Source: a virus
Virus record (IMG/VR): IMGVR_UViG_3300025110_000115
Coordinates: 1-25,374 of that record
Direction: 5' to 3' (one strand)
DNA: 25,374 nucleotides
The notes under the pieces: generated by a model
The model's database searches: none
What the model was told of the DNA's origin: nothing
Seen by the model: the letters and a program-made list of their open reading frames with translations, nothing else
Part shown: positions 152 through 17,452 of the stretch, piece after piece
Layout: the number at the start of each line of letters is the position of its first letter
Position numbering within the stretch: position 1 is the stretch's first letter
Translations under genes and position numbers: made by a program

Positions 152-643
152 ATGGCATTCAAAATGAAGGGTTCTACTCACTACGGTAAGAACCCATTAA
201 AACAAACAGTAGGCGGAGACGCAGGTGAAGCAATAGATCACTGGAAAAATTACAATAAGGCTAAAAAGGCTAAAGAGAGTATGCCTAAGGATTTCAATAT
301 GACTAATAAGAAAGATGCTTTTGATAAGACATCTAAAGAAATACTTAATAGATCTAAGAAGGCACTTAGTGACACGCCTAAACAAATGGCTAAAAAAGGC
401 AAACAAGTACTAAAGACATCGAACAAGAACTTTATCTCTGGAACTAAACAAGTTTTGAAAGCTGCTAAACCAGTTGTTAAAAACGTGGCTAAGAGATTTC
501 TAGGGCCAGTTGGAGTAGCTCTAACCGCGTACGATGTAGGAAGTTATCTTTACAAAAATAAGGATGATATTATTAAGGAATCAAAAAAAGTACAAAAGAG
601 AAGGTTTGATAACCCAAGTGATCACGGTAGACCTAAATACTAA
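152..643 (+). CDS. Tagged basic protein with hydrophobic segment
   Basis: Function unknown. This 163-aa, lysine-rich protein opens with MAFKMKGSTHYGKNPLKQ, a block nearly identical to the start of the next gene and shared in part with five more proteins in the window. The middle is charged and helical. Residues 115-134 (RFLGPVGVALTAYDVGSYLY) form the only hydrophobic stretch, flanked on both sides by lysines, and could insert into or lie on a membrane. The start has an A-rich leader (aaacgaaaacc) and the tag follows at once, so it is well placed. The next gene starts 5 bp downstream. A constant tag on a variable body, inside a virion-gene region, suggests a capsid cargo or ejected protein; this is inference. 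Confidence 0.75.
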   Translation: MAFKMKGSTHYGKNPLKQTVGGDAGEAIDHWKNYNKAKKAKESMPKDFNMTNKKDAFDKTSKEILNRSKKALSDTPKQMAKKGKQVLKTSNKNFISGTKQVLKAAKPVVKNVAKRFLGPVGVALTAYDVGSYLYKNKDDIIKESKKVQKRRFDNPSDHGRPKY

Positions 644-648
644 TAACT

Positions 649-1044
649 ATGGCATTTAAAATGAAAGGATCCCACCATTATGGGAAAAACCCACTAAGAC
701 ACAATCTGCCAGATGGAGAGGCGCACACGCACGGAACTAATAAAAACGCTTCTTTTGATACGGACACAGACGAAAAAGATTTTACAAGACGCGATAGAAA
801 GACATACGTTAGAACGAAGGAAGATAAAAAGAAGAAGGTGAAGAAGTCAGATAACTACGATATGATAAGGGGTAGAAACACAGGTGAGAGAAAACCTATT
901 GGACCAAAAAAAGACACTTGGTATAGAGATTCTGATAACGATGGTACGGTTGTTTCAAGAGCTTGGAAAAATAGACCTAGGTACAAGGTAAGGTTTAATA
1001 ACAGTCCTATGATACCTGGCTTTGTGAGCATTAAAAGAAAATAA
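649..1044 (+). CDS. Tagged basic hydrophilic protein
   Basis: Function unknown. This 131-aa protein starts MAFKMKGSHHYGKNPLR and matches the preceding protein closely over its first 16 residues, after which the two diverge completely. The rest is highly charged and probably disordered, with an RKTYVRTKEDKKKKVKKS stretch near residues 47-64 and an acidic DSDNDG near 94-99 followed by basic residues. PKKDTW at about residues 87-92 recurs in the 279-aa protein at 18986, encoded by an identical 19-bp DNA stretch. There is no membrane segment or catalytic motif. It sits in a tight run of tagged genes, and a nucleic-acid-contacting internal virion protein is a reasonable but untested idea. Confidence 0.7.
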   Translation: MAFKMKGSHHYGKNPLRHNLPDGEAHTHGTNKNASFDTDTDEKDFTRRDRKTYVRTKEDKKKKVKKSDNYDMIRGRNTGERKPIGPKKDTWYRDSDNDGTVVSRAWKNRPRYKVRFNNSPMIPGFVSIKRK

Positions 1045-1047
1045 ATA

Positions 1048-1914
1048 ATGGCATACAAACAAAAAGGACCACTATTTTTCAAGTCTAGTATAAAAGGCTA
1101 TAAGAAAAACTCTCCAGATATAAACGAACCTAAACTCAAGATACAAGGTGGTGATATAACCATGAAGGGAGTGGAATTTCCAGTACACGGGAAAGACAAT
1201 CTTGGTAATGAAAAAATAATGAAACCAGGTAAAAACTACAAGTTTCCAGGTGATTATGTAATAGAAACACCTCTACATCAAAACAATGAAGAGCCTTTGT
1301 ACGAAGGTGAATACGAAGAGGGAGGATTAAAAAGGGATCGCTTTAAAAATTTACCATACGAAAAATATAAAAAAGTTGTCCCTGCTAAAGAAAAGTATGT
1401 AATGCCTGAGGATTGGGGTGATTACGGGTTTAGCGAAGGTGGTGGAAAAGCTGCTTTTTATAGACCTAATGAAAAAACTATATACTATAAAAACAGACCA
1501 GTCCCATATAAAGATCCTATATATCCTACAAGCGAACAAAAGAAACACGAAAATATACATCATTTACAAGAAATGGAAGGAGGTAAAGGATCTGTTCTTG
1601 GCGAATTCTTCAAAGACAGGGATGCTTACATGAAGAAATTTAAAAAAGGAGAATTCACCCAAGATCCATACACTATGATACCACACACTTACACTTGGGA
1701 AGATGGAAGTACTAGCGAGGGCGTTAAACAGAACCCGAATCCATCTGGAAAGTGGGAGGATTTACCAAAATCAAGTAGAAAGAAGATGGCTACGCATCGT
1801 AGAAAAACTTTTAACACAAGAAGAGACATACCTGGAACTATAGAGCACGATGCTACAGTCCGAACTAAAGCTGCTGGTCCAGGGTATTATAAAGAAAAAT
1901 TTTCGAAAAAATAA
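1048..1914 (+). CDS. Putative HExxH metallopeptidase, tagged N-terminus
   Basis: A 288-aa protein with the variant tag MAYKQKGP. Residues 35-75 hold a glycine/proline-rich block (ITMKGVEFPVHG, then PGKNYKFPGDYVIETP). Residues 137-175 look like the core of a zinc peptidase: a short beta pattern (AFYRPNEKTIYYKNR) followed by HENIHHLQ, in which H167-E168-x-x-H171 would bind zinc and supply the catalytic glutamate. The third ligand is not certain; E266 in IEHDA is a candidate because it forms the ExxA pattern seen in gluzincins. There is no signal peptide. It could process virion proteins, act on peptidoglycan, or be an ejected protease. The catalytic motif is seen directly; the role is inference. 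Confidence 0.6.
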   Translation: MAYKQKGPLFFKSSIKGYKKNSPDINEPKLKIQGGDITMKGVEFPVHGKDNLGNEKIMKPGKNYKFPGDYVIETPLHQNNEEPLYEGEYEEGGLKRDRFKNLPYEKYKKVVPAKEKYVMPEDWGDYGFSEGGGKAAFYRPNEKTIYYKNRPVPYKDPIYPTSEQKKHENIHHLQEMEGGKGSVLGEFFKDRDAYMKKFKKGEFTQDPYTMIPHTYTWEDGSTSEGVKQNPNPSGKWEDLPKSSRKKMATHRRKTFNTRRDIPGTIEHDATVRTKAAGPGYYKEKFSKK

Positions 1915-1939
1915 TTAATTAATTACAAAAACAAAAAAA

Positions 1940-2482
1940 ATGGCATTTAAAATGAAAGGTACTCCAATGTATAGAAATTACGGCGTTGGAAAGGCACCAC
2001 TAAAGGATTATGATATGGAAAAAGGTTCTCATGACCATCCACATTCTCCAGCTAAAAACATGAAAGACGGTGAATACAAGCACGACTTTGAGTCACCGGC
2101 AAAACAAAGAGTAAAAAAGCAAAAAAGCGCTAAGTATATTGATGACGAAGGTGGAGACACTAGAAACGAAAAAGGCCAAACTCAAAAAGACGTAATAAAA
2201 AGTAGACAAAAAAACATAGATAAAGCAGGTAAGAGCCTAAAGAAAGGGACAAAGACCCTACAAAAATCTGTTGATAAAGGCATGAGTTTGGAGTCCGCTA
2301 ATGAGAAAAGATCTGAAATGATATCTAGCTTGAACAACGCTATAGAAAAATATAATTTCTCTGCAGACTCTATTAAAACTACTATACCTAAGATACAAGA
2401 ACAAAGAAAAGTTACTAGAGAGCTTGACGCTGAGATGGAGTACGAAAGAAAAACTTCAAAAAATAAAAAGAAAAAGAAATAA
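1940..2482 (+). CDS. Tagged coiled-coil, lysine-rich protein
   Basis: Function unknown. This 180-aa protein opens MAFKMKGTPMYRNYG. Three short motifs of the same kind follow: APLKD at 19-23, SPAKN at 36-40 and SPAKQ at 52-56, separated by His/Asp/Glu-rich linkers. From about residue 70 to 175 it is a long charged helix with coiled-coil character (repeated K/E/L/S heptad-like spacing), ending in a KKKKK tail. The leader aattacaaaaacaaaaaaa is strongly A-rich and fits initiation without a Shine-Dalgarno. The 25-bp gap before it is the largest inside this first cluster, so it may have its own translation control. An elongated basic internal protein is plausible. Confidence 0.72.
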   Translation: MAFKMKGTPMYRNYGVGKAPLKDYDMEKGSHDHPHSPAKNMKDGEYKHDFESPAKQRVKKQKSAKYIDDEGGDTRNEKGQTQKDVIKSRQKNIDKAGKSLKKGTKTLQKSVDKGMSLESANEKRSEMISSLNNAIEKYNFSADSIKTTIPKIQEQRKVTRELDAEMEYERKTSKNKKKKK

Positions 2483-2514
2483 CAAACTAATATTAACCAA
2501 CACATAAAACCAAA

Positions 2515-2805
2515 ATGACTTACTTGTATTACAAGAGTTCGTATACCACGAACACAACTAAACCGAATGAAAAAACTATGAACCAATGGAAACATCTTGC
2601 AGATAAGAAAAACTGGAGGATTACCCAATTACCTAATGGATTCTACCAAACAGAGTGCTCAAACCCTGATAATGAGGAATGGCACGCTGTTACAAGACGA
2701 GAAACAATAAAGGGTGCTGAAACAGCAATTGATGGAAGCATTGATCATTTCTCTAAAAAGATAGAAGCCACACAAGGACCTAAAGTTATAAAAACATTCA
2801 AATAG
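2515..2805 (+). CDS. Small hypothetical protein upstream of groEL
   Basis: I do not recognise this 96-aa protein. It is a compact, mixed alpha/beta sequence with several aromatics (WRITQLPNGFYQTEC at about residues 33-47, EEWHAVTRRETIKGAETAI at 54-72). It has two cysteine codons at most, no transmembrane segment and no tag like its neighbours. I chose the start at 2515 because an A-rich leader precedes it; an alternative Met at residue 22 (MNQWKHLADKKNW) would give a 75-aa protein and cannot be excluded. It ends with TAG, one of only three TAG stops in the window. It lies 22 bp before groEL, so co-transcription is likely, but no shared function is visible. Confidence 0.65.
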   Translation: MTYLYYKSSYTTNTTKPNEKTMNQWKHLADKKNWRITQLPNGFYQTECSNPDNEEWHAVTRRETIKGAETAIDGSIDHFSKKIEATQGPKVIKTFK

Positions 2806-2827
2806 AACCACAATTAAATTAAATTAA

Positions 2828-4390
2828 ATGGAATACAATCTACCTAGCGAGATTGTCAAAGACTTAAACTTTGGCGATTCCGCTAAACAACGAATAATTA
2901 AAGGAGTAGAGAAATTAGCAAATGCTGTTTCTTCTACACTTGGAGCCTCAGGAAAATGCGTGATATATGAAGACGCTCAGGGCAAACCGGTGATCACAAA
3001 AGACGGAGTAACAGTAGCTGAATCTGTTGTCTTATTCGATCCGGTTGAAAATATGGGAGCTACCTTAATAAAGGAAGCTGCTAGAAATACAGTGAAAGAA
3101 GCAGGAGACGGTACTACAACAGCTACCGTTCTTGCTAACTCACTTATTAAAGAGGTAAGCAAAACCAGAGGTTCTACAACTAGAGATATTAAAGAAGGTA
3201 TATTGTCTGGTACTAAAAAAATAAACGAATATTTAGATAAAATAAAAATAGACGTTAAAGATAGCATGCTGGATAGTGTGGCTGCTATAAGCTGTAATAA
3301 CGATATGGAGTTAGGATCTATAATATCTGACGCGTATAAAAGAGTAGGTAAGGACGGGGTTGTTCTAATGGAAACTTCTGAGACAAACGAAACCTACACT
3401 GAGGTTGTTGATGGTGTGCAAATAGAATCTGGACTAATATCTCCTCATTTTGTAACTGATAATGAGAAACAAAGAGTTATTTTAGAAAAACCTTTAGTTT
3501 TAATTGTTTCTTCAGAGATACCAAATGTAAGAAAAATACAAAATATACTAGAGTTTGTTATAAAAAACAACCGATCTTTACTAATTGTCGCTCAAGTAAG
3601 CCAGCAAGTAAAATCGGCGCTTTTAATGAACAAAGTAAAAGGTAATATAAAGGTCAATATTGTAGATTTACCAGGTTTTGGACCAACAAAACAAGACACG
3701 ATCAAAGATTTGGCTATTTTAACTGGAGCTACTGTAATTAACGAAGAGCTTGGTGATGATTTAGACGGGATTTCATTAGATATTCTTGGAGAAGTAGAAA
3801 AATCAGTTACAGACGATAAAAGCACTGTTATAACAACGTTAGAAACATCAGAAGAAGTCCCTGAAAGAATAAAAGAAGTTCAAAAACTATTAAAATCAGA
3901 GAAAAATGGTTTTTTAAAGAAGAAAATAGAGCAAAGATTAGCCATGTTATCTGGATCTGTAGGAATAATACGCGTAGGAGCTGATTCTAAGGTAGAACTG
4001 AAAGAAAAGAAAGATAGAGTAGAGGACGCAATATACGCAACCAAAGCCGCGTTAAAGGAAGGTATTGTTCCGGGTGGTGGAATTGCACTGTTGAACGCTT
4101 CTCAATGTATTGAGCCTGAAAACATTGGAGAAACAATACTGCTAGACGCAATTAAAGCGCCATTCGAAACAATACTACACAACGCAGGAATAGAAGATTA
4201 TGAATTACCAAATGTTAAAGGTTACGGTGTCGATGTTATTAGTGGTGATATTGTGGATATGGTTGATCACGGGGTTATCGACCCTGTTTTAGTAACAAAA
4301 TCAGCATTAAAGAACGCAAACTCCGTAATAAGCACTATAATTTCCGCAAATTGTGTGATATCTAATATGAGGACAAATGAAAGCAGTTAA
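2828..4390 (+). CDS. groEL: Phage group I chaperonin, GroEL-like
   Basis: This 520-aa protein is a group I chaperonin that would form an ATP-driven folding ring in the host cytoplasm, presumably serving virion proteins. All equatorial ATP motifs are present: VITKDGVTVA (55-64, with D59), AGDGTTTATVLA (92-103, matching E. coli D87) and RVEDAIYATKAA (397-408, with the Asp equivalent to catalytic D398), then GIVPGGG (412-418) and GVIDPVLVTKSAL (482-494). The apical domain (about 190-375) is recognisable but divergent in the two helices that bind substrate and GroES. The protein ends in NMRTNESS with no Gly-Gly-Met tail and is shorter than the usual ~545 residues. Its last 14 bp overlap groES. 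The leader contains acaattaaattaaatta. Intact catalytic residues argue for an active enzyme. Confidence 0.96.
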   Translation: MEYNLPSEIVKDLNFGDSAKQRIIKGVEKLANAVSSTLGASGKCVIYEDAQGKPVITKDGVTVAESVVLFDPVENMGATLIKEAARNTVKEAGDGTTTATVLANSLIKEVSKTRGSTTRDIKEGILSGTKKINEYLDKIKIDVKDSMLDSVAAISCNNDMELGSIISDAYKRVGKDGVVLMETSETNETYTEVVDGVQIESGLISPHFVTDNEKQRVILEKPLVLIVSSEIPNVRKIQNILEFVIKNNRSLLIVAQVSQQVKSALLMNKVKGNIKVNIVDLPGFGPTKQDTIKDLAILTGATVINEELGDDLDGISLDILGEVEKSVTDDKSTVITTLETSEEVPERIKEVQKLLKSEKNGFLKKKIEQRLAMLSGSVGIIRVGADSKVELKEKKDRVEDAIYATKAALKEGIVPGGGIALLNASQCIEPENIGETILLDAIKAPFETILHNAGIEDYELPNVKGYGVDVISGDIVDMVDHGVIDPVLVTKSALKNANSVISTIISANCVISNMRTNESS

Positions 4391-4634
4391 TCATTACCTC
4401 GTTATAGAGAGAATAAAAGAAAGCCCTAAGAAAATAGGTGGATTAATATTAACCGAAGAAACAGGGGACGAAAACAGATATACTAAAGCTAAGGTAATAT
4501 CAACAGGAAATCTTGTAGAAGGAATACACGTAGATGATATTATATATTACGCCAAAAACGCTGGGCATGGGATTCAGCATAAAGATAAATTTTACCATGT
4601 TATAAAACAAATGGACGTGGTATTAATAGATTAA
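4377..4634 (+). CDS. groES: Phage co-chaperonin, GroES-like
   Basis: An 85-aa Cpn10 homologue that would cap the GroEL ring. The order of elements fits GroES: an N-terminal strand (NHYLVIERI), a mobile loop at about 15-33 containing GGLIL (equivalent to GGIVL of E. coli, the residues that dock into GroEL), then AKVISTGN and HVDDIIYYAKNAG, and a last strand DVVLID. It is about 12 residues shorter than E. coli GroES, mostly in the central region. The start codon lies inside the end of groEL in another frame, so translation is probably coupled. That the two genes lie together suggests a matched pair rather than reliance on host GroES. Confidence 0.93.
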   Translation: MKAVNHYLVIERIKESPKKIGGLILTEETGDENRYTKAKVISTGNLVEGIHVDDIIYYAKNAGHGIQHKDKFYHVIKQMDVVLID

Positions 4635-4706
4635 CCAAAACCATAAACCTAAACCCTAAAACTCAAACGACAATTAACTTAATTATTAACAAAAAACAAA
4701 ACGATT
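4635..4706 (+). promoter_or_regulatory. G-poor leader before the 141-aa protein gene
   Basis: This 72-bp gap is among the longest within the gene array. Its first 33 bases (4635-4667) contain no G and read like spaced C/A repeats (ccaaaaccataaacctaaac). It then holds acaattaa (4670-4677), an octamer also seen before three other starts, and an A-rich stretch up to the start codon. An unstructured leader that favours ribosome access, perhaps with a promoter, is the simplest reading. No terminator hairpin is visible. Confidence 0.35.
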
Positions 4707-5132
4707 ATGAAACCAATGATGGTATTTCACAGTGCTACTGTAGACAGTGACTCTGTAGGATCACATGACGCAGGTACAAACTTAGATATGGCTGCTTTCG
4801 CAGTAGAAGATTTAGTTTGTATTACAGCTGGTAACACTTCAGTAGAATTAACGTTCAACGAAACAGGTATGTTTAACAGAGAATCTGGCACCGGTGGAGA
4901 TGATGAGGCTGGTTTAGAGAACTCTCTAGCTATCTTAACAGTAACTGACGCTGCTACTGCTACTGCTATTGTTAAGAAAATAATTCTTGCAATTAATGGT
5001 GGTCCTCACAAGTCTGGTATGTTTTTGTTTGACGCTGTAAACGACGTTTATCCTAGTGATATTGCTTCAGGTGACGTATCAGCGATCAACATTAGACGTA
5101 CTACTACTTCAAGAGTTGTTGTAGCTGCTTAA
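4707..5132 (+). CDS. Probable beta-rich virion protein
   Basis: A 141-aa protein of unknown function. It is rich in Thr, Ala, Val, Gly and Asp and poor in Lys, unlike the tagged proteins on either side. Alternating hydrophobic residues (DLVCITAGNTSVELTFN at about 35-51, TATAIVKKIILAINGG at 84-99, INIRRTTTSRVVVAA at the end) suggest a small beta sandwich. That composition resembles the capsid protein and the 135-aa protein at 8349 and fits a highly expressed structural component. It has the longest untranslated leader in this part of the window, which also fits strong independent expression. A capsid decoration role is a guess from composition and context. Confidence 0.6.
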   Translation: MKPMMVFHSATVDSDSVGSHDAGTNLDMAAFAVEDLVCITAGNTSVELTFNETGMFNRESGTGGDDEAGLENSLAILTVTDAATATAIVKKIILAINGGPHKSGMFLFDAVNDVYPSDIASGDVSAINIRRTTTSRVVVAA

Positions 5133-5138
5133 CTTTGA

Positions 5139-5579
5139 ATGAGATTAACCGCGCAGGATCTGCGTGAAATGAATATCCTTAAGTATTACAGGCTCACACG
5201 AAAGTGGGCCTGTAAGACTTACGGGTTAACAGATGCAGATTTAGAATTATTAATTTATTTAGATTGTAAAGAAAGATTTACACGGCAAGAGTTTATAGAT
5301 GGTACTTACACCATGAGTTGGGATAAGAACCGTTGGGAGAAACTAAGGAAATTAGGTTGGATAGAAACCTGGAGACACAGAAACAGAACAACAATAAAGT
5401 ACTCAGTGTTTAAAACATCATTCAAATGTTCTCAGTTAATCAGTAGAATATATAGAGTGTTGTTAGGTGAAGAAGATTTACCAACATCAGAGAGAAGTAC
5501 TTTTTATAATAATAAAACATATACTGATAAGGTTTTTAATAAATCTATAGACGATATGATAAAAGACAAAGATAGATAA
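5139..5579 (+). CDS. Putative winged-helix (MarR-like) protein
   Basis: A 146-aa basic protein that probably binds DNA. Residues 30-90 read as a winged helix-turn-helix: a helix LTDADLELLIYLDC, a second element RFTRQEFIDG, a possible recognition helix WDKNRWEKLRKLGWIE, then a basic wing WRHRNRTTIKYSVF. A further helix (CSQLISRIYRVLLGEE) follows and could mediate dimerisation. The C-terminal 40 residues are polar. It lies 6 bp after the previous gene and 1 bp before the next, so it is in the same transcription unit as virion genes. It may regulate late transcription or host genes; MarR-type folding is judged from the pattern of helices and wing, not from a strong motif. Confidence 0.6.
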   Translation: MRLTAQDLREMNILKYYRLTRKWACKTYGLTDADLELLIYLDCKERFTRQEFIDGTYTMSWDKNRWEKLRKLGWIETWRHRNRTTIKYSVFKTSFKCSQLISRIYRVLLGEEDLPTSERSTFYNNKTYTDKVFNKSIDDMIKDKDR

Positions 5580-5580
5580 T

Positions 5581-6234
5581 ATGGCTTATAGACAAAAACC
5601 ACCAACTTTCATGCGTAGCTGTTTAAAACAAAAACAGTATTGGTATAAAGTAGATGGCAAAAACGTTAGCAAGGAAGAGTATAATGAATACCAAAACATA
5701 CCTGGTCAGATGGAAGGTGGCGGTAAAACTACTAATGATCCAGATGCTAGCGGTCGTAAGGCTGCTACTGAAAAAGCAAGATCAAAAAATAAAAGACCTA
5801 CAGTTTTGACAGAAGCACAAACTAAATTACTAAAAGAAAGAACAAGCAAAAAATCTCCACCGTTTAAAGCTACGGCTGGTTTTAATATACTTATGGAAGG
5901 CGCTGGAAAAGACGCCACCAACAAATACACTTCTGGAGATAGATCTTATAGAGGGTCTTATGATATTGATTTTAAAAAATCAGCTTTCCACCCATCCAAA
6001 GAGGATATATCAGATGATAACGGTGGTAACGGAGATAACGGGGGCAACAATACTTTCTCTAGCACGAGCGTTAAATGGCCACCAAAAATTAAAGGAAACA
6101 AAAAACAAAGAAACTACGCTACAACTTCTTGTGAAATCGTATCAGACAAACACGGTAAGCAAACAAATAAGTTTACAAATCTAACAAAGAAACAACAAAG
6201 AAAAATTAGAAAAGGTCAAGTAGGAGGAATATAA
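5581..6234 (+). CDS. MAY-start tagged basic protein
   Basis: Function unknown. This 217-aa, lysine-rich, mostly hydrophilic protein starts MAYRQKPPTFMRSCLKQ, resembling the MAYKQKGPLFFKSSIK start of the protein at 1048. The centre is rich in Gly, Asn and Asp (a GGNGDNGGNN linker at about residues 149-158), and the C-terminus is strongly basic (KKQQRKIRKGQVGG). Short phrases such as KSPPFKATAGFNILMEGAG near residues 98-116 give the only hydrophobic patches. There is no catalytic motif. The start codon comes 1 bp after the preceding stop, and the next gene starts 1 bp after its own stop. It opens the second cluster of tagged proteins, upstream of the holin. Confidence 0.68.
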   Translation: MAYRQKPPTFMRSCLKQKQYWYKVDGKNVSKEEYNEYQNIPGQMEGGGKTTNDPDASGRKAATEKARSKNKRPTVLTEAQTKLLKERTSKKSPPFKATAGFNILMEGAGKDATNKYTSGDRSYRGSYDIDFKKSAFHPSKEDISDDNGGNGDNGGNNTFSSTSVKWPPKIKGNKKQRNYATTSCEIVSDKHGKQTNKFTNLTKKQQRKIRKGQVGGI

Positions 6235-6235
6235 T

Positions 6236-6595
6236 ATGGCATATAAAATAGGATCAGAAAGAAGAAATACACCTTATAAAGTTATCAAAAAATCCTTAGG
6301 AAAGGGAATTTTAGGTGAGGCAAATAACGATGGTACTATATTTATAAACAAAGATATACCTAATGGTAGCGCAAAAGAAAAAGAAGTTGTAGCACACGAG
6401 GGTAAACACATGGACGATATGGCTTCTGGTAAATTAGCTTACGGAGACGACTTTGTGAGATATAATGGTAAAACTTATCATAGAAAAAACGGAAAAATTA
6501 ATTATAATGGCAAGTGGTCTGAAGAAGGTTCTAAAGACTTCCCTTGGGAAAAAGCTGCCTACAAAGTGGGTAACGCCGCAAAAAAACAAAAATAA
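6236..6595 (+). CDS. Small putative HExxH metallopeptidase
   Basis: A 119-aa protein beginning MAYKIGSERR. After a short beta pattern (GTIFINKDIP, about 33-42) comes EKEVVAHEGKHMDDM, in which H54-E55-x-x-H58 matches the zinc-peptidase signature. Near the C-terminus PWEKAAY provides E105, an ExxA glutamate suited to be the third zinc ligand. That arrangement is typical of minimal gluzincin-like peptidases, although this one is very short. There is no signal peptide or membrane segment. It lies in a tight array of tagged genes ending at the holin, so a lytic or virion-borne role is possible. Peptidase activity is a motif-based prediction; the substrate is unknown. Confidence 0.6.
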   Translation: MAYKIGSERRNTPYKVIKKSLGKGILGEANNDGTIFINKDIPNGSAKEKEVVAHEGKHMDDMASGKLAYGDDFVRYNGKTYHRKNGKINYNGKWSEEGSKDFPWEKAAYKVGNAAKKQK

Positions 6596-6600
6596 AAATT

Positions 6601-7944
6601 ATGGCATTTAAAATGAAAAGCGCTCTAAAGTTTGGGCAAAAAACAGCGTTCAAAATGAAAAGTTACAGTCCCGCGAAACAAACGGTAGATCCAGACGCAC
6701 CTGGTACTCCAGGAAAGCCTGGCTACGAACCACCAGTTGTACGTGGGGAACTAGACGAGAAAGGCAAAGCAATATATGACGCTCATAGAAATAAAGCAAC
6801 AAAGGAGTGGTTAATGGAGAACAAAGGGTTCAACCAAGAAGACGCAGACCGAATGATGGCTGACGGAGCGTACTCATACAAGGATATGATGAAAGAAAAA
6901 GGCGCACACAAAAATCCTAAAGCAAAAAAAGACGTTGCAGCTGAACCAAAAGGCAAAGGATCAGAAGGCAAACCTAAGCAAGAAGATTTTGAACCAGCTT
7001 ATGAAGGCGCTGATTACAGCAAGAAAGATATCGCTAAAATGACCGCAAAAGAAAAAGCAGCAAAAATTGATGGTTATGAAGCTAAGCCAAAAAAGAAAAA
7101 GACGCCATTAGAACAAGAGGGACCTATACCTAAAAAGAACATTAAATTACAAAAAGGGGAACATCCAGACACTTACTTATTCGGACATAATTATGGTGAC
7201 GAAAATATTGAAGGAGCAGGAGAAGGTTTTGAGCCAACTGGAACTAGAGGCGAACAGTTTACAGCTAACGAAAGAATAAACGACATGGAAGAAAGAGCTG
7301 GTTTCTTAATTGATAACGATATACCAGATCTTGAAGGCTCAACAGACCCTAAAGATGTTAAAAAATTAAAAACATTAAAAGCTACCGCTAAAAAACTTCA
7401 ACACGAAGCAGATATAATGCGTAAAAGAAGAGAAAACGAAAAAAAATCTTCTCCAGCTAAACAAGCTATAGATAATATAGAATATGGTGGGATGAATTAT
7501 AAAGCCTATAAATATCACAAAGATTATGGTACAGGTGAAAATGCTGTTAGTAAAAAAGAGGAAAGAAAAGCTACAAGAAAATGGAAAAAAGAACACGGTG
7601 TTAAAGGAAAAACCGGTGGACGGCACGAAAAAAGATTAGAGAAGAAAGCAGTTAGAAAACTAAAAAAATCTGAAAAATCACATGCAAAATATGAAGAAGC
7701 TAAAAAAGCTTATTATGATGATGATGTAAACAATAAAAAAGATTGGAAAAAACTGCAAAAAACAAGAAAAAAAGCTGACAAAAGAAGAGGCAAGGCAACT
7801 AGTGCTGAACTTAAAGTAAGACACAATAGGGAATTAGCAAGTGTTAAAGGTGATAAAAGAAATAAAGTTGAATTATCCAAAGCTTATAGCAAGCAAAAAT
7901 TACCGGAAATGCAAAAGATGCCACAGTTAAAAATCGAAAAATAG
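6601..7944 (+). CDS. Large tagged Lys/Glu-rich protein with doubled tag
   Basis: Function unknown. This 447-aa protein starts MAFKMKSALKFGQK and repeats the tag core at once (AFKMKS at residues 16-21), followed by SPAKQTVDPD at 23-32. A second SPAKQ occurs at 284-288. Residues 35-280 are acidic/basic, probably disordered or helical. Residues 289-447 are very rich in lysine and arginine with long coiled-coil-like helices (RLEKKAVRKLKKSEKS and similar). The two SPAKQ copies use different synonymous codons, so the motif is kept at protein level. The gene may be a fusion of two family members, with a junction near residue 284. It ends with TAG, 7 bp before the holin. Confidence 0.72.
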   Translation: MAFKMKSALKFGQKTAFKMKSYSPAKQTVDPDAPGTPGKPGYEPPVVRGELDEKGKAIYDAHRNKATKEWLMENKGFNQEDADRMMADGAYSYKDMMKEKGAHKNPKAKKDVAAEPKGKGSEGKPKQEDFEPAYEGADYSKKDIAKMTAKEKAAKIDGYEAKPKKKKTPLEQEGPIPKKNIKLQKGEHPDTYLFGHNYGDENIEGAGEGFEPTGTRGEQFTANERINDMEERAGFLIDNDIPDLEGSTDPKDVKKLKTLKATAKKLQHEADIMRKRRENEKKSSPAKQAIDNIEYGGMNYKAYKYHKDYGTGENAVSKKEERKATRKWKKEHGVKGKTGGRHEKRLEKKAVRKLKKSEKSHAKYEEAKKAYYDDDVNNKKDWKKLQKTRKKADKRRGKATSAELKVRHNRELASVKGDKRNKVELSKAYSKQKLPEMQKMPQLKIEK

Positions 7945-7951
7945 TTAAATC

Positions 7952-8344
7952 ATGAATATATTAGGTAAAATATTTTCAGGTGGAGCTACTGAATTGGTAA
8001 AAGGTGTAGGTGGAGTTATAGATAACTTACATACTTCTAAAGAAGAAAAGCTTGAAGCTGAAAAACAAATAAAAGATATGATAATGGGTTATGAGGCTGA
8101 GATGCAAAAGCAAGTAACCGAAAGATGGTCGATGGATATGAAGTCGGACTCTTGGTTATCAAAAAATATAAGACCACTAGTTTTAATATTTCTAGTAGTA
8201 TCAACAGTATTGTTAGTTTTTATCGATGCTGGTGTTATTGCTTTTGAAGTTAAGGCTTCGTGGGTAGACTTATTACAATTAGTATTAATAACGGTGATCG
8301 GTGCTTATTTTGGCGGCAGATCACTAGAAAAAGTAAAAAAATAA
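7952..8344 (+). CDS. Holin, GTA-type 3TM family
   Basis: A 130-aa inner-membrane protein that would permeabilise the membrane at the end of infection. It resembles the 'holin of 3TMs, for gene-transfer release' family in its order of parts: an N-terminal amphipathic segment (FSGGATELVKGVGGVIDNL, 8-26), a charged helix (about 29-57), the SDSWLSKNIRPL junction (66-76), hydrophobic segments at about 74-97 and 103-121, and the YFGGRSLEK end. No endolysin is recognisable next to it; the HExxH protein two genes upstream is the closest candidate partner. The tag proteins upstream and virion genes downstream place it in the late transcript. Confidence 0.85.
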   Translation: MNILGKIFSGGATELVKGVGGVIDNLHTSKEEKLEAEKQIKDMIMGYEAEMQKQVTERWSMDMKSDSWLSKNIRPLVLIFLVVSTVLLVFIDAGVIAFEVKASWVDLLQLVLITVIGAYFGGRSLEKVKK

Positions 8345-8348
8345 AATT

Positions 8349-8756
8349 ATGGGATCAAAAAGTGATGTAGTAGACTACGGCTTTGGCCAAATGGGTAGTG
8401 GGCACGTAGTTGCTCACGGTACTGATGTTTTCGCTCCAAAAGGAAAAGTAATAGTAGCAATAACGTTTCTAGACGACACGTATTTAGACAAGTTAGTTGC
8501 TGACACTAGTCACAATACTGGGTCTGCTACTGTTGATAATGGACCAGATGACACGGCGTATTTTGGAACTGGAACTCAAGTAACTGCTAATGGTGGTGAT
8601 GGTGAGGCTGGAGGTTACAACTCTGTGACAAGTGTTGCTGTTGCAGCGACTGTTAAATTTCCAAAAGGAGTTACTATATACGGTAGATGGACAGAAGTTT
8701 CTATACAAAATACATCTGTTACTGCTAGCGGTATAATTCTTTATTACGGTATATAA
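8349..8756 (+). CDS. Probable virion decoration protein
   Basis: A 135-aa protein of unknown function with the composition of a beta-structured virion component: rich in Gly, Thr, Val and Ala and low in Lys. Residues 26-46 (DVFAPKGKVIVAITFLDD) form a strand pair, residues 50-92 a Gly/Thr/Asp-rich loop region, and residues 93-135 a set of alternating hydrophobic strands ending in SGIILYYGI. The stop codon TAA shares its last base with the next gene's ATG, so it is translationally coupled to the lectin-like protein that follows. The pairing suggests it may form a base or partner for that protein on the virion surface, which is inference from context. Confidence 0.6.
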   Translation: MGSKSDVVDYGFGQMGSGHVVAHGTDVFAPKGKVIVAITFLDDTYLDKLVADTSHNTGSATVDNGPDDTAYFGTGTQVTANGGDGEAGGYNSVTSVAVAATVKFPKGVTIYGRWTEVSIQNTSVTASGIILYYGI

Positions 8757-9670: not shown

Positions 9671-9671
9671 C

Positions 9672-10639: not shown

Positions 10640-10844
10640 GAAGATTACAATAGGAAAAGACTACAAAAACGATGCCATGCATTATGCTGTTGGTCAAGAA
10701 GTTTACGGTGGACACACGATATCTGATATAATAGAAGAAAAAGATAAGTATTCTGTTTATATTAAAAAGAAAAAAGACGTGTTGCCTTGGAAAGACTTCA
10801 ACAAGAACATGGCAATATCAATAGAGTATAATTTAGAATACTAA
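10626..10844 (+). CDS. Small hypothetical protein
   Basis: I do not recognise this 72-aa protein. It appears to be a small beta-barrel-like sequence: RLIRKITIGKDY, then HYAVGQEVYGGHTISDIIEE, then DKYSVYIKKKKDVLPWKDF, with strand-sized hydrophobic alternation. The start lies within the last 14 bp of the previous gene and its TAA shares a base with the next gene's ATG, so all three are coupled. The overlaps on both sides support it as a real gene even though it is short. The role is unknown. Confidence 0.65.
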   Translation: MRLIRKITIGKDYKNDAMHYAVGQEVYGGHTISDIIEEKDKYSVYIKKKKDVLPWKDFNKNMAISIEYNLEY

Positions 10845-11446: not shown

Positions 11447-11654
11447 AGTCGCTAAAGAACCTATTGTAGATTCAGACGACGATATATCAGCTGATAGGTT
11501 AAAAAATGCCGCAGCTACTAAAAAACTAGCTATATTTGACGCATTTGAAATACTCACAAGAATCCAAGAAGAAGAAAACCTGCTTGAGGGCAAAGCACCT
11601 GAAGAGGGAAAGAAAAAAGTCTTTAAAGGATTCGCAGAAGGTAGATCTAAGTAA
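11379..11654 (+). CDS. Putative terminase small subunit
   Basis: A 91-aa, helical, charged protein directly before the large terminase gene, sharing one base with it (TAA/ATG overlap). It starts MNIKETKKNIIQAGQRAVEE, has an acidic middle (DSDDDISADRL), then NAAATKKLAIFDAFEILTRI and an FKGFAEGRSK end. Small size, helix content and position fit a DNA-recognising small terminase, although no helix-turn-helix motif is certain. The start lies inside the preceding gene, giving a 68-bp overlap, the longest in the window. No internal Met offers an alternative, and the acaattaa leader motif ends 2 bp before the ATG, which supports this start. Confidence 0.65.
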   Translation: MNIKETKKNIIQAGQRAVEELIKVAKEPIVDSDDDISADRLKNAAATKKLAIFDAFEILTRIQEEENLLEGKAPEEGKKKVFKGFAEGRSK

Positions 11655-13870
11655 TGTACAAGCAAAGTTTAGTTAAGACCGTAGAGCCCATTAAAAAAAC
11701 CACGATCACTAGAATGAATCGAGGCAAGAAATGGAAGTACGGATACAATAAAGAACACGACTTAATTGTGTTATCACACAATGGAGTTATAGGTGAAATT
11801 ATAGAGATACAAAATTTAATTATAGCGCTACCGAAACCACCTAAAGAAGTATATACGCATCCAAAGAATAAATGGGTTAAGCAGGAATATCCTAAAGAGC
11901 TCCAGAGGATCAAAAACATATTCGATTGGAGGGGTTATCCGGAAAACAATAAAGAAAAATGGTACGATTACATAGACGAAGAATTTAAACGACGAGAGGA
12001 GGGTTTCTGGTTTATGAATAATGGTAAACCAACCTGGATAACCGGTACGCACTATATGTATTTACAATGGAGTAAAATTGATGTTGGAGCTCCAGATTAT
12101 AGAGAGGCAAATAGATTATTCTTTATATTTTGGGAGGCCTGTAAAGCAGACAAAAGATGCTATGGTATGTGCTACCTTAAAAACCGTAGATCAGGATTTT
12201 CTTTCATGTCGTCGGCGGAAACAGTTAATTTAGCCACTATATCAAGTGATAGTAGATATGGTATATTGTCAAAAACTGGTGCAGATGCGAAAAAAATGTT
12301 TACAGATAAAGTTGTTCCTATATCGATTAATTATCCGTTCTTTTTTAAACCTATCCAAGATGGTATGGATCGGCCAAAATCCGAACTTGCTTACAGAGTA
12401 CCTGCTAGTAAGTTTACAAGAAAGAAGATCACGTCGAATGAGCAGCTCGAAGATATTAAAGGACTAGATACGACTATAGACTGGAAAAACACAGGAGACA
12501 ATAGTTATGATGGTGAAAAATTAAACTTATTAGTGCACGATGAAAGCGGTAAATGGGAAAGACCAGACAATATATTAAACAACTGGAGGGTTACAAAAAC
12601 CTGTTTAAGATTAGGTAGTAGAATAGTAGGAAAATGTATGATGGGCTCAACTTCTAACGCCCTTGACAAAGGAGGAGACAACTTTAAAAAACTATACAAT
12701 GCTTCAGATGTTACCTCAAGAAATCGTAATGGACAAACAAAATCTGGTTTATATTCTTTGTTTATCCCAATGGAATGGAACTACGAAGGATTTATTGACG
12801 AATACGGATATCCAGTTTTTAATAGTCCAGATAATGATGTACTCGGACCAGATGGTGAATTAATAGATTACGGTATAATAGAACACTGGGAAAACGAAGT
12901 TGAAGGGTTAAAATCTGATCACGATGGCTTAAACGAGTTTTATAGACAGTTTCCAAGAACAACAGAGCACGCGTTTAGGGATGAGGCTAAAAACAGTATA
13001 TTTAATCTAGTTAAACTTTACGAGCAAATAGATTACAACGAAGGAGTAGGTAGCGTTGCGAATATAAGCACTGGAAATTTCCAATGGGTTAATGGAGTGA
13101 AAGACACGCAAGTTATATTTTATCCAGATCCAAAAGGTAGGTTTAAAATAAGTTGGACGCCACCTCAACATTTACAAAACAAGAGTATAGAAAAGAAAGG
13201 GATAAAATACCCAGCAAATGAACACATGGGAGCCTTTGGGTGCGATAGTTACGACATATCAGGAACAGTAGACGGAAGAGGATCAAACGGAGCATTACAC
13301 GGTTTAACTAAGTTTTCAATGGAAGACGCCCCTCCAAATCAGTTCTTTTTAGAATATGTAGCAAGACCACAAACAGCGGAGATATTCTTTGAAGATGTAT
13401 TGATGGCATGTGTGTTTTATGGTATGCCTTTATTGTGTGAGAACAACAAACCTAGACTTTTGTATCACTTTAGAAGAAGAGGTTATAGAGGTTACTCTAT
13501 GAACAGACCGGACAAGTTATGGAACAAACTTTCTGTAGCTGAAAAAGAAATAGGTGGGATACCAAACTCAAGTGAAGACATCAAGCAGGCTCACGCTGCT
13601 GCTATTGAAATGTATGTACAGAGTCACGTTGGTCATTTAGGCGATGGTAATTATGGTGCTATGTACTTTAATAGAACGCTAAATGACTGGGCTAGATTTG
13701 ACATAACAAAAAGAACAAAGTTCGATGCTACTATTAGTTCCGGACTAGCCATAATGGCTTGCAATAGGCATTTGTATAGACCTAACGCGAAAATTGAAAA
13801 ACCAAAATTAAACATAAACATTGCTAAGTACTCAAATAGAGGTGATGTTTCAAGAATAATCAAAAATTAA
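11654..13870 (+). CDS. terL: Terminase large subunit
   Basis: A 738-aa DNA-packaging motor with an N-terminal ATPase and a C-terminal RNase H-like nuclease. The Walker A position is held by KNRRSGFSF (177-185), a deviant form without the GK[ST] end, as seen in many phage terminases. Walker B is LNLLVHDE (290-297, with D296 and catalytic E297), and the coupling motif is GKCMMGSTSN (326-335). The nuclease acidic residues are probably D531 (GCDSYDISG), E596 (LLCENNK) and D691 (KFDATISSGLA). It would dock on the portal encoded 2 bp downstream. The size and nuclease pattern resemble crAss-like and marine Bacteroidota phages. This is the most informative gene for placing the phage. Confidence 0.93.
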   Translation: MYKQSLVKTVEPIKKTTITRMNRGKKWKYGYNKEHDLIVLSHNGVIGEIIEIQNLIIALPKPPKEVYTHPKNKWVKQEYPKELQRIKNIFDWRGYPENNKEKWYDYIDEEFKRREEGFWFMNNGKPTWITGTHYMYLQWSKIDVGAPDYREANRLFFIFWEACKADKRCYGMCYLKNRRSGFSFMSSAETVNLATISSDSRYGILSKTGADAKKMFTDKVVPISINYPFFFKPIQDGMDRPKSELAYRVPASKFTRKKITSNEQLEDIKGLDTTIDWKNTGDNSYDGEKLNLLVHDESGKWERPDNILNNWRVTKTCLRLGSRIVGKCMMGSTSNALDKGGDNFKKLYNASDVTSRNRNGQTKSGLYSLFIPMEWNYEGFIDEYGYPVFNSPDNDVLGPDGELIDYGIIEHWENEVEGLKSDHDGLNEFYRQFPRTTEHAFRDEAKNSIFNLVKLYEQIDYNEGVGSVANISTGNFQWVNGVKDTQVIFYPDPKGRFKISWTPPQHLQNKSIEKKGIKYPANEHMGAFGCDSYDISGTVDGRGSNGALHGLTKFSMEDAPPNQFFLEYVARPQTAEIFFEDVLMACVFYGMPLLCENNKPRLLYHFRRRGYRGYSMNRPDKLWNKLSVAEKEIGGIPNSSEDIKQAHAAAIEMYVQSHVGHLGDGNYGAMYFNRTLNDWARFDITKRTKFDATISSGLAIMACNRHLYRPNAKIEKPKLNINIAKYSNRGDVSRIIKN

Positions 13871-13872
13871 AT

Positions 13873-16293
13873 ATGGCTGGAGTTATTAAAAATATTTTTC
13901 CAAGTCAAGTTGCTAAAGATTCTGAGAAAAGAAGTTTAGAATATGGCTTGAAAGTTGGTAAAGCAATTGAAAACGAATGGTTTTCAAATAGTCATGGTTA
14001 TCATGGTAGCAATAGATATGCTAACAATAAAAATAATTACCACACTTTAAGACTATATGCTAGAGGAGAACAATCTATACAAAAGTATAAAAATGAATTA
14101 TCTATAAACGGTGACTTAAGCTACTTAAACTTAGATTGGAAACCAGTGCCTATTATATCTAAGTTCGTAGATATTGTTGTTAATGGCATCTCAGAGAGAA
14201 TGTACAGTGTGAAAGCTTACGCGCAAGACCAGTATGGAGTGAGTAAGCGCTCTGCGTATATGGAGTCTTTAATGGGAGATTTACAAACGGTAGAACTAAA
14301 TGAATTAGCGAAAAGTATTGGAATTAATCTTAATGAAAACGAAGGGCCAGACTTACCAAGGACGAAAGAAGAACTAGATCTATACATGCAATTAACGTAT
14401 AAACAAGGTGTTGAAATAGCAGAGGAACAAGCAATCAACATGTTGATGGAAGGTAATAGGTATGAGTTAACAAAAAAGAGGGTTAATTACGATTTAACTG
14501 TCTTAGGTATTGGAGCGGTAAAAACATCTTTTAATACTTCTCAAGGTGTTACTATAGACTATGTTGATCCAGCTAATTTGGTTTACTCTTACACAGAGTC
14601 TCCGTATTTTGAAGATATATATTACGTTGGAGAGGTTAAAAGCATACCTATCAATGAATTGAAAAAACAATTTCCACTACTTACTGACGTTGAGTTAAAA
14701 GAAATATCACAAGGAAAAAGCACTAGAAATAGATATATGAACAATATACAAACTGGTGACGAAGATAATAACAAGGTTCAAGTTCTCTACTTTAATTATA
14801 AAACCTATATGAATCAGGTTTATAAAATGAAAGAAACAAAAACAGGAGGAACTAAAGCTATTAAAAAAGACGATAACTTTAACCCACCTGAAGACAAAAA
14901 AGGAGACTTTGGTAAACTAAATAAATGTATAGAAGTTTTATTTGACGGAGCTATGATAGTTGGTACTGATAAACTTTTGAAATGGGAAATGGCTAAAAAC
15001 ATGATGAGGCCAAAAAGTGATTATACTAAAGTTAAAATGAATTACGCTATAGTTGCGCCGAGAATGTATAACGGTAAAATCGAATCGCTAGTTAGTAGAA
15101 TAACTGGTTTCGCTGACATGATTCAACTTACACACTTAAAGTTACAACAAGTTTTATCTAAAATGGTTCCTGATGGTGTTTATTTAGATGCCGATGGGTT
15201 AGCTGAGATTGACTTAGGTAATGGTACAAATTATAATCCACAAGAAGCGTTAAACATGTTCTTCCAAACGGGTAGTGTAATCGGTAGAAGTTTTACTTCA
15301 GAAGGCGATATGAATCCTGGTAAAATACCTATTCAAGAAATATCTAGCGGTAGTGGTGGCCAAAAACTACAAAGTCTAATACAGACATACAACTATTATC
15401 TACAAATGATAAGAGATGTAACCGGGCTAAACGAGGCGTCAGATGGTTCTAAGCCTGAAAAATACTCATTAGTTGGTGTTCAAAAGCTAGCGGCAGCAAA
15501 CTCTAACACAGCGACAAGACATATATTACAAGCTGGTTTATTTTTAACATCTGAAACCGCAGAGGCTTTATCACTTAGAATATCTGATATTATAGAGTAT
15601 TCTCCTACTAGAAACGCGTTTATACAAGCCTTAGGTGCTCACAACGTTTCTACACTTGAAGAAATGTCTCAATTACACTTATATGACTTTGGAATATTTA
15701 TAGAACTTTCTCCAGACGAAGAACAAAAAGCTATGCTTGAAAATAATATACAAGTAGCTTTAGCACAACAAACAATAGAACTTGAAGACGCGATAGATCT
15801 TAGAGAGGTTAAAAATGTAAAGTTAGCTAATCAACTTTTAAAAGTTAGAAGAAAGATTAAAATGGAGAAAGATCAAGTTAAACAAATGCAACTCCAACAG
15901 TCTCAAGCCCAAGCTAACATTCAGCAACAACAAGCTGCTGCTCAAATGGAAATGCAAAAAGAACAAACTAAAACACAAAGCGTAATTCAAATTGAAGAAT
16001 TTAAAGCTAACTTAGAGTCTAGTAAAATGATGCAAGAAGCTCAAATTAAAAAAGAACTTTTACAGTTAGAGTTTGAAAACGACATGAGATTAAAACAAGC
16101 GGAAATCTCAAGAATGAACAACGCAGACGTTGAAAAAGAAGACAGAAAAGATAAAAGAACAAAGATTCAAGCTACGCAGCAATCAAAAATGATAGAGCAA
16201 AGACAAGATAAAGCTCCTGCTAAGAACTTTGAACAAGAAGAACAGTCACCGTTTGATCAAGATAGAGTTCAATCGATGATGAACAATATGTAA
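13873..16293 (+). CDS. Portal protein
   Basis: An 806-aa protein that forms the ring at the packaging vertex. It lies directly between TerL and the scaffold/capsid genes, where a portal is expected, and its length fits the large portals of crAss-like phages. The N-terminal 200 residues and a central alpha/beta region (for example DYVDPANLVYSYTESPYFED and RDVTGLNEASDGSKPEKYSL) resemble a portal core. Residues about 600-640 form a helix-rich crown part. From about 657 the sequence becomes a Gln- and Met-rich coiled coil (QQSQAQANIQQQQAAAQ), probably extending into the capsid. Near the C-terminus APAKN echoes the SPAKQ motif of the tagged proteins. Confidence 0.88.
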   Translation: MAGVIKNIFPSQVAKDSEKRSLEYGLKVGKAIENEWFSNSHGYHGSNRYANNKNNYHTLRLYARGEQSIQKYKNELSINGDLSYLNLDWKPVPIISKFVDIVVNGISERMYSVKAYAQDQYGVSKRSAYMESLMGDLQTVELNELAKSIGINLNENEGPDLPRTKEELDLYMQLTYKQGVEIAEEQAINMLMEGNRYELTKKRVNYDLTVLGIGAVKTSFNTSQGVTIDYVDPANLVYSYTESPYFEDIYYVGEVKSIPINELKKQFPLLTDVELKEISQGKSTRNRYMNNIQTGDEDNNKVQVLYFNYKTYMNQVYKMKETKTGGTKAIKKDDNFNPPEDKKGDFGKLNKCIEVLFDGAMIVGTDKLLKWEMAKNMMRPKSDYTKVKMNYAIVAPRMYNGKIESLVSRITGFADMIQLTHLKLQQVLSKMVPDGVYLDADGLAEIDLGNGTNYNPQEALNMFFQTGSVIGRSFTSEGDMNPGKIPIQEISSGSGGQKLQSLIQTYNYYLQMIRDVTGLNEASDGSKPEKYSLVGVQKLAAANSNTATRHILQAGLFLTSETAEALSLRISDIIEYSPTRNAFIQALGAHNVSTLEEMSQLHLYDFGIFIELSPDEEQKAMLENNIQVALAQQTIELEDAIDLREVKNVKLANQLLKVRRKIKMEKDQVKQMQLQQSQAQANIQQQQAAAQMEMQKEQTKTQSVIQIEEFKANLESSKMMQEAQIKKELLQLEFENDMRLKQAEISRMNNADVEKEDRKDKRTKIQATQQSKMIEQRQDKAPAKNFEQEEQSPFDQDRVQSMMNNM

Positions 16294-16321: not shown

Positions 16322-17452
16322 ATGAAAGAAGAAAAACAAAAACCGGCAGTAGCCGAAGAACCTAAAGTAGACAATACTGTTGAAAAATTAAAGGTTAAAA
16401 AATCTAAACCAAAAAAGTTTTCTAAACAACCAGAAAACAATACTACTAAAGTAGATTTAAAAGATCTAGCAGCAAAAGCAGAAGAGGTAACAAAAGTAAA
16501 CTTAGACAAACCTGTAGAAGAAATAAAACAAGTTGAAGAACCTAAAGTTGAAAAACCTGTAGAGACGCCGTTGTTAGAAGAAGTTACAAAAGAAAAAAAG
16601 GAAGTTAAAAAAGTTCCAGAACCTCCTAAGGTTGTTTTACCAGAAAACGTTCAAAAGTTAATGAGCTTCATGAATGACACTGGTGGAGATATTAATGACT
16701 ACGTTAAACTTAATACAGATTACTCTGATTTAGATAACGATACTCTTCTTAGAGAATACTATAAAACAACAAAGCCACACTTAACAAACGAAGAAGTTGA
16801 CTTTGTTATACAGGACAAGTTTTTATACGACGAAGACACTGAAGAAGAGTTAGACATAAAAAGAAAAAAATTAGCCTTGAAGGAGCAAGTTGCTCAGGCA
16901 AGGAACCACTTAGACGGGTTAAAGTCTAAATACTATGAAGATTTAAAAGCTGGAAGTAGATTAACAGAAGATCAGCAGAACGCTATTGAATTCTTCAACA
17001 AATACAACGAGGAATCAGCTACAGGACAAAAGATGACCGAAATATTTTTGGATAAAACTAATAATGTTTTTAATGACGAGTTTAAAGGATTTGAATACAA
17101 AGTTGGTGACAAGGTATATAGGTACAACGTAAACAACGCTGAAGAGATTAAAAATTCTCAAACTGATATTAATAATTTTGTAGGAAAGTTTCTGAACGAA
17201 AATAACGAAATGTCAGACGCAGAGGGTTATCACAAGTCTCTATACACAGCAATGAACGCGGACTCTATAGCTAATCATTTCTACGAGCAAGGAAAAGCAG
17301 ACGCACTAAGAGATAGCGTTGCAAACGCTAAAAATGTGAGTATGGATCCTAGACAATCGCACGGCGAAAATGTCGAGGCTGGAGGAATGAAGTTTAGAGC
17401 ATTAGATGACGATGGTGGTTATTCTAAGTTTACATTCAAAAAAACAAAATAA
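16322..17452 (+). CDS. Putative scaffolding protein
   Basis: A 376-aa protein between portal and major capsid genes, the standard place for a scaffold. Residues 1-105 are low-complexity Lys/Glu/Val/Pro with repeated EEPKVE-type phrases (EEPKVD, VEEPKVEKPVE) and are probably disordered. Residues 110-330 are acidic and helical (EEELDIKRKKLALKEQVAQA and similar), as expected for a rod-like scaffold. The end is compact (MKFRALDDDGGYSKFTFKKT), basic and suited to bind the capsid protein. No protease motif is visible. The leader is AT-only. The role is inferred from position and composition, since scaffolds are poorly conserved in sequence. Confidence 0.65.
   Translation: MKEEKQKPAVAEEPKVDNTVEKLKVKKSKPKKFSKQPENNTTKVDLKDLAAKAEEVTKVNLDKPVEEIKQVEEPKVEKPVETPLLEEVTKEKKEVKKVPEPPKVVLPENVQKLMSFMNDTGGDINDYVKLNTDYSDLDNDTLLREYYKTTKPHLTNEEVDFVIQDKFLYDEDTEEELDIKRKKLALKEQVAQARNHLDGLKSKYYEDLKAGSRLTEDQQNAIEFFNKYNEESATGQKMTEIFLDKTNNVFNDEFKGFEYKVGDKVYRYNVNNAEEIKNSQTDINNFVGKFLNENNEMSDAEGYHKSLYTAMNADSIANHFYEQGKADALRDSVANAKNVSMDPRQSHGENVEAGGMKFRALDDDGGYSKFTFKKTK

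Follow-up and report, generated by a model that had tools for sequence, protein, structure and literature searches.

A conserved MAFKMKG N-terminus on small, basic, and otherwise unrelated proteins of uncultured marine phages as a candidate capsid-loading tag

The window analyzed here is the whole of IMG/VR virus record IMGVR_UViG_3300025110_000115, a stretch of 25,374 bases in which several genes encode proteins that begin with the short peptide MAFKMKG, or a close variant, and then diverge. We propose that this N-terminus is probably a capsid-loading tag, bringing the proteins that bear it into procapsids. A preliminary description of the window named seven such genes in two clusters. All seven open reading frames (ORFs, named here by their first base) were found where that description placed them, each on the plus strand:

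152..643 (+): tagged protein 1, 163 amino acids (aa), Lys 21%; MAFKMKG at 152-172, NPLKQ from residue 14
649..1044 (+): tagged protein 2, 131 aa; MAFKMKGSHHYGKNPLRH
1048..1914 (+): tagged protein 3, 288 aa; tag MAYKQKG
1940..2482 (+): tagged protein 4, 180 aa; MAFKMKG plus APLKD, SPAKN, and SPAKQ
5581..6234 (+): variant-tag protein 5, 217 aa; MAYRQKP, a weaker variant
6236..6595 (+): protein 6, 119 aa; degenerate tag MAYKIG(SE), predicted SprT-like mini-gluzincin with H54, E55, H58, and E105
6601..7944 (+): tagged protein 7, 447 aa; MAFKMKS, FKMK again at residue 17, SPAKQ at residues 23 and 284

The start that these proteins were said to share is clear in five of them (ORFs 152, 649, 1048, 1940, and 6601), weaker in ORF 5581, and degenerate in ORF 6236, whose MAYKIGSE taken alone has no FKxK match. 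By pattern search, the exact MAFKMK[G/S] start belongs to ORFs 152, 649, 1940, and 6601. The reported lysine richness of the bodies is real when tagged proteins are set against others (Lys 16.8% vs. 8.8%; net charge +8.2 vs. +1.2 per 100 aa), and some bodies, such as that of ORF 152, do contain a hydrophobic segment.

Beyond the window, the tag takes the form of an M[AP]FKMKG N-terminus, often with S[PA][LMA]K within ~40 residues. The MAFKMKG DNA pattern occurs in at least 120 IMG/VR stretches and the MPFKMKG pattern in 27, vs. three for a reversed-peptide control of equal degeneracy. Aligned tags read M-A/P-F-K-M-K-G, with a core of F (93%), K (100%), M (89%), and K (95%), and in a few proteins the tag start is offset by up to ~12 residues (MARKSKAKFKMKG, MSKKGKRGFKMKG). 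Across 50 contigs, FKMK-coding 12-mers numbered ~140 vs. ~17 for the reversed control; because this set had been selected by the tag itself, a check on records selected by their capsid gene weighs more. Nineteen of 25 such IMG/VR records have FKMK-coding sequence, including every contig of at least 43 kb, and the six that lack it are fragments of 27-41 kb. The tag and the window's capsid-protein lineage occur together in 38 of 40 tag-positive contigs. Within single genomes, shared N-terminal 4-mers were found in the window and several tag genomes, and none were found in the parts of phi38:1, elemo, ctfjg026, and AG-345-E15 scanned in the same way. No mention of the MAFKMKG sequence was found in the papers searched.

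The preliminary description overlooked another shared motif, S[PA][LMA]K[QK]. Its S[PA][LMA]K core reaches a density of 6.80 per 1000 aa in residues 8-45 of tagged proteins vs. 0.25 in shuffled sequences (27-fold), and roughly one-third of tagged proteins contain a closely similar sequence there. The possibility that the shared start reflects only lysine bias is ruled out by these reversed and shuffled controls, and by the ~131 unrelated bodies described below. Separately, a module of the form ALVGKQxNLPxxLKxKILxSPAK recurs after the tag or after SPxK in otherwise different proteins (L032, L087, L201, L200, and L063). The 553-aa product of G021 61939-63600 (L247) starts MDNRLMTLAGLSPLKQDD, which contains this second motif but no FKMKG tag, and the rest of this protein looks lysozyme- or transglycosylase-like by eye.

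The tag is encoded by 47 different 21-mers with mostly genome-like codon choice, and we therefore take selection to act on the peptide rather than on the nucleotides. If the conserved start were instead a signal for translation or in the RNA around the start codon, this would explain the strong A-rich leader and the preference for GCA at codon 2 (72% vs. 29% genome-wide). However, codon usage is ordinary for Phe and for the second Lys, Gly-7 is encoded by all four codons, and both the displaced tags and the internal copy in ORF 6601 lie away from the start codon, so that this explanation, already disfavored, is highly improbable.

Behind the tag, the bodies are diverse. The 266 tagged proteins (median 123 aa; Lys-rich; net positive in 82% vs. 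46%) fall into 131 body clusters, 100 of which are singletons. Among 108 tagged proteins, the main domain recognized by Pfam was DUF6321, and the only others were DUF7167 and a single marginal match to Eco57I. DUF6321 is found in 442 phage records, mostly from cyanophages and pelagiphages, and the DUF6321 proteins of S-CAM4 and HTVC028P, the two whose N-termini were read, are both untagged. Likewise, the ORF 1048 domain (residues 14-74) is free-standing and untagged in some relatives and sits behind FK-type tags in others. A search of the phage collection with a KVCLPAAK-type body gave no match. Since unrelated bodies are so numerous, and since these two domains occur with and without the tag, the tag appears to have been joined to unrelated bodies rather than to mark one diverging family. 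Tandem gene clusters and some shared-body clusters, such as the 30-member SprT-like and 21-member ORF 6601 groups, are what might be expected if the common start were a relic of a single fast-diverging paralog family. Yet most body clusters are singletons, the DUF6321 body stands untagged in cyanophages and pelagiphages (on the two N-termini read), and both the ORF 1048 domain and that of phi38:1 gp80, discussed below, occur with and without the tag. We consider such a relic very unlikely.

An observation outside the tag lineage touches on DUF6321. In AG-345-E15 (MH319741; L280 and L283), an unannotated marine virus fragment, ORFs start MKTFKEFLEE and MKTFEQFTEG, and the MKTFEQFTEG ORF overlaps a DUF6321 match. 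These starts look like the capsid-targeting sequence of T4. Different capsid lineages may use their own address tags for the same cargo domain.

The charge of the bodies suggests another route into the head, in which the Lys-rich bodies and SPxK do the work by binding DNA and the N-terminus is incidental. SPKK is a motif of histone H1; SPKK itself occurs in some tagged bodies, residues 8-45 are enriched for [ST]Px[KR], and the net charge of +8.2 per 100 aa would suit this route. Bulk charge, however, needs no near-invariant MAFKMKG start. Moreover, S[PA][LMA]K occurs at only 1.20 per 1000 aa in untagged Lys-rich small proteins, vs. the 6.80 of the tag region, and a near-neutral protease domain, that of the ORF 6236 family, retains F3 and K4. 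Entry by DNA binding is therefore distinctly unlikely in our estimation.

ORF 6236 is predicted to encode a SprT-like zinc protease. The preliminary description had noted two HExxH cores in the window, and the one in ORF 6236 is real: H54, E55, H58, and E105 are invariant in 60 aligned family members. The other, HENIH in ORF 1048, is unproven, with no conserved family behind it in the sequences analyzed. The ORF 6236 family is present in all ten other near-complete genomes examined. M1, F3, and K4 are conserved in at least 90% of members and are followed by a hypervariable linker and then the catalytic domain. In a predicted model of ORF 6236 (predicted local distance difference test score 82), residues 1-11 are disordered, and the model matches a SprT-like viral protein in BFVD (E=2.3e-5, template modeling [TM] score 0.63). 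Against PDB it had no significant match (best E=0.23), with weak resemblances to mini-gluzincins and IrrE/PprI. Such a passenger might work within the procapsid or after reaching the next cell; roles in cleaving head proteins or DNA-protein crosslinks are both speculative.

The tag genes hold conserved places among the following genes of the window, of which the terminase, portal, GroEL, GroES, and holin were identified from PHROGs matches:

2515..2805 (+): conserved 96-aa gene; marks the first tag slot, with a homolog in most of ten genomes
2828..4390 (+): phage GroEL (phrog_5725, E=2.6e-133); conserved landmark between the two tag slots
4377..4634 (+): phage GroES (phrog_3188); landmark
5139..5579 (+): winged-helix-like (wHTH) gene; opens the second tag slot, family identity 48-97%
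7952..8344 (+): holin (phrog_3427, E=2.2e-31); closes the second tag slot
11654..13870 (+): terminase large subunit (phrog_6681, E=1.2e-172)
13873..16293 (+): portal protein (phrog_6547, E=4.4e-146)
16322..17452 (+): presumed scaffold or inner-capsid protein, between the portal and major capsid genes
17478..18911 (+): major capsid protein (virion structural PHROG match); the lineage with which the tag co-occurs

Across ten near-complete genomes, the order is tags, 96-aa gene, GroEL, GroES, wHTH gene, tags, holin, terminase, portal, presumed scaffold, and capsid protein. The tag genes thus occupy two conserved slots, one before GroEL and one between the wHTH gene and the holin, with occasional tags elsewhere. 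In six records where the capsid gene was recognized by its C-terminus, the window included, 28 of 29 tag genes lie on the capsid-gene strand, vs. ~60% of all genes. Genomes nearest the window in capsid protein have several tags each; more distant ones (~50% capsid identity) have one to three, one of which belongs to the protease family or is its neighbor.

Alternatively, the tag might send late proteins to a place other than the head interior, for example the tail, the surface of the virion, the host nucleoid, or the cell envelope, with their action falling in the infected cell before lysis. The tag genes adjoin the holin and chaperonins, outside the terminase-to-capsid block; some bodies, such as that of ORF 152, have hydrophobic segments; and the presence of tagged proteins in virions is a prediction. 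However, the restriction to one capsid lineage, the FKxK at scaffold termini, and the bodies common to annotated virion proteins point to the particle, and we judge a destination other than the head interior to be unlikely.

By terminase and capsid protein, relatives of the window are phages of Cellulophaga, Flavobacterium, Tenacibaculum, and Maribacter. From these sequence affinities, the tag-bearing group, which consists of uncultured marine phages, likely has Bacteroidetes hosts. When genomes were scanned with the capsid protein, the only matches were two contigs from metagenome-assembled genomes (MAGs), one in a Maricaulis bin and one in a Sphingobacteriales bin, and for this reason the host assignment stays an inference. 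The contig in the Sphingobacteriales MAG, JAAXIF010000025.1 (L239), is 63 kb long, carries the lineage's capsid protein, and is a possible hint to the host.

Some neighboring genes also deserve mention. The wHTH gene at 5139..5579 looks homologous to phi38:1 gp78 by eye, from a reading of the sequences only. A second GroES-like gene lies near the terminase at 10844-11446 (phrog_13932, co-chaperonin GroES, E=7.6e-16) and has homologs in related genomes. Between the holin and the terminase, at 8349-10361, lie probable tail-fibre or LamG-like genes, whose counterparts in relatives are poorly conserved.

The presumed scaffold provides a possible clue to how the tag might work. Its gene sits between the portal and capsid genes in the window and relatives alike. 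A predicted model of the 16322-17452 product has a helical core (residues 108-337) flanked by disordered tails, with a predicted TM score of only 0.39, and the FK-containing ends of scaffolds fall in these tails. In relatives, the C-terminus reads ..FKFKIKxK, and 90 of 102 scaffolds have FKx[KR] within the last 16 residues; in a divergent clade, FKLK, FKIK, or FKVK lies near the N-terminus instead. By comparison, [FY]K[MLIVF]K occurs in the last 14 residues of 6 of 2409 other proteins, two of which are unlisted scaffolds, leaving 4 of ~2407. Among 85 gene families of at least five members each, terminal FKxK was present in most members of seven tag families and of just one untagged family, that of the scaffold (68%, n=109). 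The next untagged family outside the protease group reached 27%. Because no other untagged family shows such a majority, the cargo may dock as the scaffold does, perhaps at a shared site.

Two further observations concern terminal FKxK. The only other untagged family in which it is notable starts MKKYIIILFA and is signal-peptide-like (L134 1971-2729, L092, and L123); 27% of its members end KFKIK, NYKIK, or KYKLK. The elemo scaffold has the N-terminus "MFKMK," a single case that we do not weigh heavily.

A virion role for the tagged proteins is supported indirectly by resemblances to annotated structural proteins. The small basic protein gp80 of phi38:1, whose gene directly follows gp78, is labeled "structural protein" in phi38:1, phi40:1, and Calle. 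With a profile of gp80 relatives, its domain was recovered as the last part of the tagged protein G007 62522-63310 (E=4e-17; shuffled sequences gave no match) and in untagged genes right beside tag genes in several contigs. The domain of ORF 1048 has a match (E=9e-6) close to the N-terminus of a protein of 896 aa that Cellulophaga phages phi17:2 and phi4:1 encode and that is annotated as virion structural. The homolog of the window's capsid protein in Calle_1 is annotated "structural protein /major capsid protein." The GenBank labels behind the gp80 and ORF 1048 links are reported to come from virion mass spectrometry.

Taken as a capsid-loading tag, the MAFKMKG(..SPxK) N-terminus would work as follows. 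Late in infection, several small, basic, and mostly disordered proteins would be made alongside the head proteins, and the tag would lead to the uptake of each by the growing procapsid, leaving it as cargo inside the virion. Bodies could be freely swapped behind the tag, including DNA-binding-like basic domains, the SprT-like zinc protease, DUF6321, and many orphans, each with a presumptive role of its own and, perhaps, delivery into the next host. Scaffold and cargo would have a docking site in common, probably on the inner face of the major capsid protein; this is the simplest arrangement because the presumed scaffold has the same FKxK in a disordered tail. A more specific proposal is scaffold mimicry, in which the tag imitates the terminal FKxK tail with which the scaffold would grip the coat protein, so that any gene gaining the tag becomes head cargo, the SprT-like protease being one conserved passenger. 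We regard this mimicry as possible but doubtful.

Several points weigh against capsid loading and against the scaffold link. Common descent would also tie the tag to a single capsid lineage. The nearest cultured relatives, phi38:1, elemo, and ctfjg026, are without the tag. The gp80 and ORF 1048 links take GenBank labels at face value. No prohead protease was identified, though no systematic search for one was made. The 16322-17452 product is presumed to be a scaffold from its gene position and matches no solved structure. Furthermore, FKxK is only four residues long and the scaffold link was seen post hoc; FKx[KR] is missing from the last 16 residues in 12 of the 102 scaffolds; in the window itself, the scaffold tail SKFTFKKTK (17423-17449) is divergent with no FKxK match; and the SPxK second motif is absent from scaffolds. 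The window scaffold protein had no PHROG match at E<0.001 and its model no fold match in PDB. Among cultured phages of the collection sampled, none had the tag or the ORF 6236 protease, a result that the 23-aa query makes weak evidence.

If capsid loading is correct, a widespread marine phage lineage has a natural plug-in cargo system with a seven-residue address and more than 100 natural passengers. This would give many orphan phage proteins a functional class, make virion cargo predictable from sequence alone, and offer a direct test of how phages select the proteins that travel in the head. A comparison of scaffold tails with cargo tags renders the docking question testable.

Among known systems, the nearest in lineage are Callevirus/Pervagoviridae (Cellulophaga phages phi38:1, phi40:1, and Calle) and the marine Bacteroidetes "group 2" genomes (PMC5332604), which have related terminase, portal, capsid protein, and GroEL genes. 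The lineage resembles "group 2," and we infer that the two are the same. In the comparable region, Callevirus/Pervagoviridae encode small basic proteins annotated as structural (gp69 and gp80), but phi38:1 is without the MAFKMKG tag. The ORF 6236 body resembles SprT-like and mini-gluzincin metalloproteases in its HExxH, downstream Glu, and small fold, and differs from SprT-like proteases in its length of ~119 aa and the variable linker to an FK[L/M] N-terminus.

In mode of action, the closest parallel may be the internal proteins of T4, as the preliminary description suggested. In T-even phages, the conserved capsid-targeting sequence alone is the common element of a diverse set of cargo proteins (PMC3012670), and internal proteins enter the core by means of it (PMC5694885). 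Like IPI-III and Alt of T4, the proteins described here have a short conserved N-terminus and unrelated Lys-rich basic bodies and, judged by gene location and strand only, are encoded with head genes; the N-terminal propeptides of giant phages (SPN3US) likewise provide a short conserved N-terminus on diverse basic head-made proteins. The profile-type comparison proposed in that description bears this out, with the tag at or no more than ~12 residues from the N-terminus, ~131 unrelated bodies, a head-gene region, and one capsid lineage. Homology is another matter: among 108 tagged proteins, none matched an internal-head-protein PHROG at E<0.001, the one match at E=0.045 lying outside the tag, and we therefore do not file the system as a member of the T4 internal proteins. 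The analogy holds in part, and the tagged proteins may work like T4 internal proteins without being related to them. Here, the tag sequence is different (MAFKMKG..SPxK), the phage lineage is podovirus-like and associated with Bacteroidetes, body types are far more numerous across the lineage, some tags are displaced or duplicated, and an FKxK element is common to the tag and the presumed scaffold.

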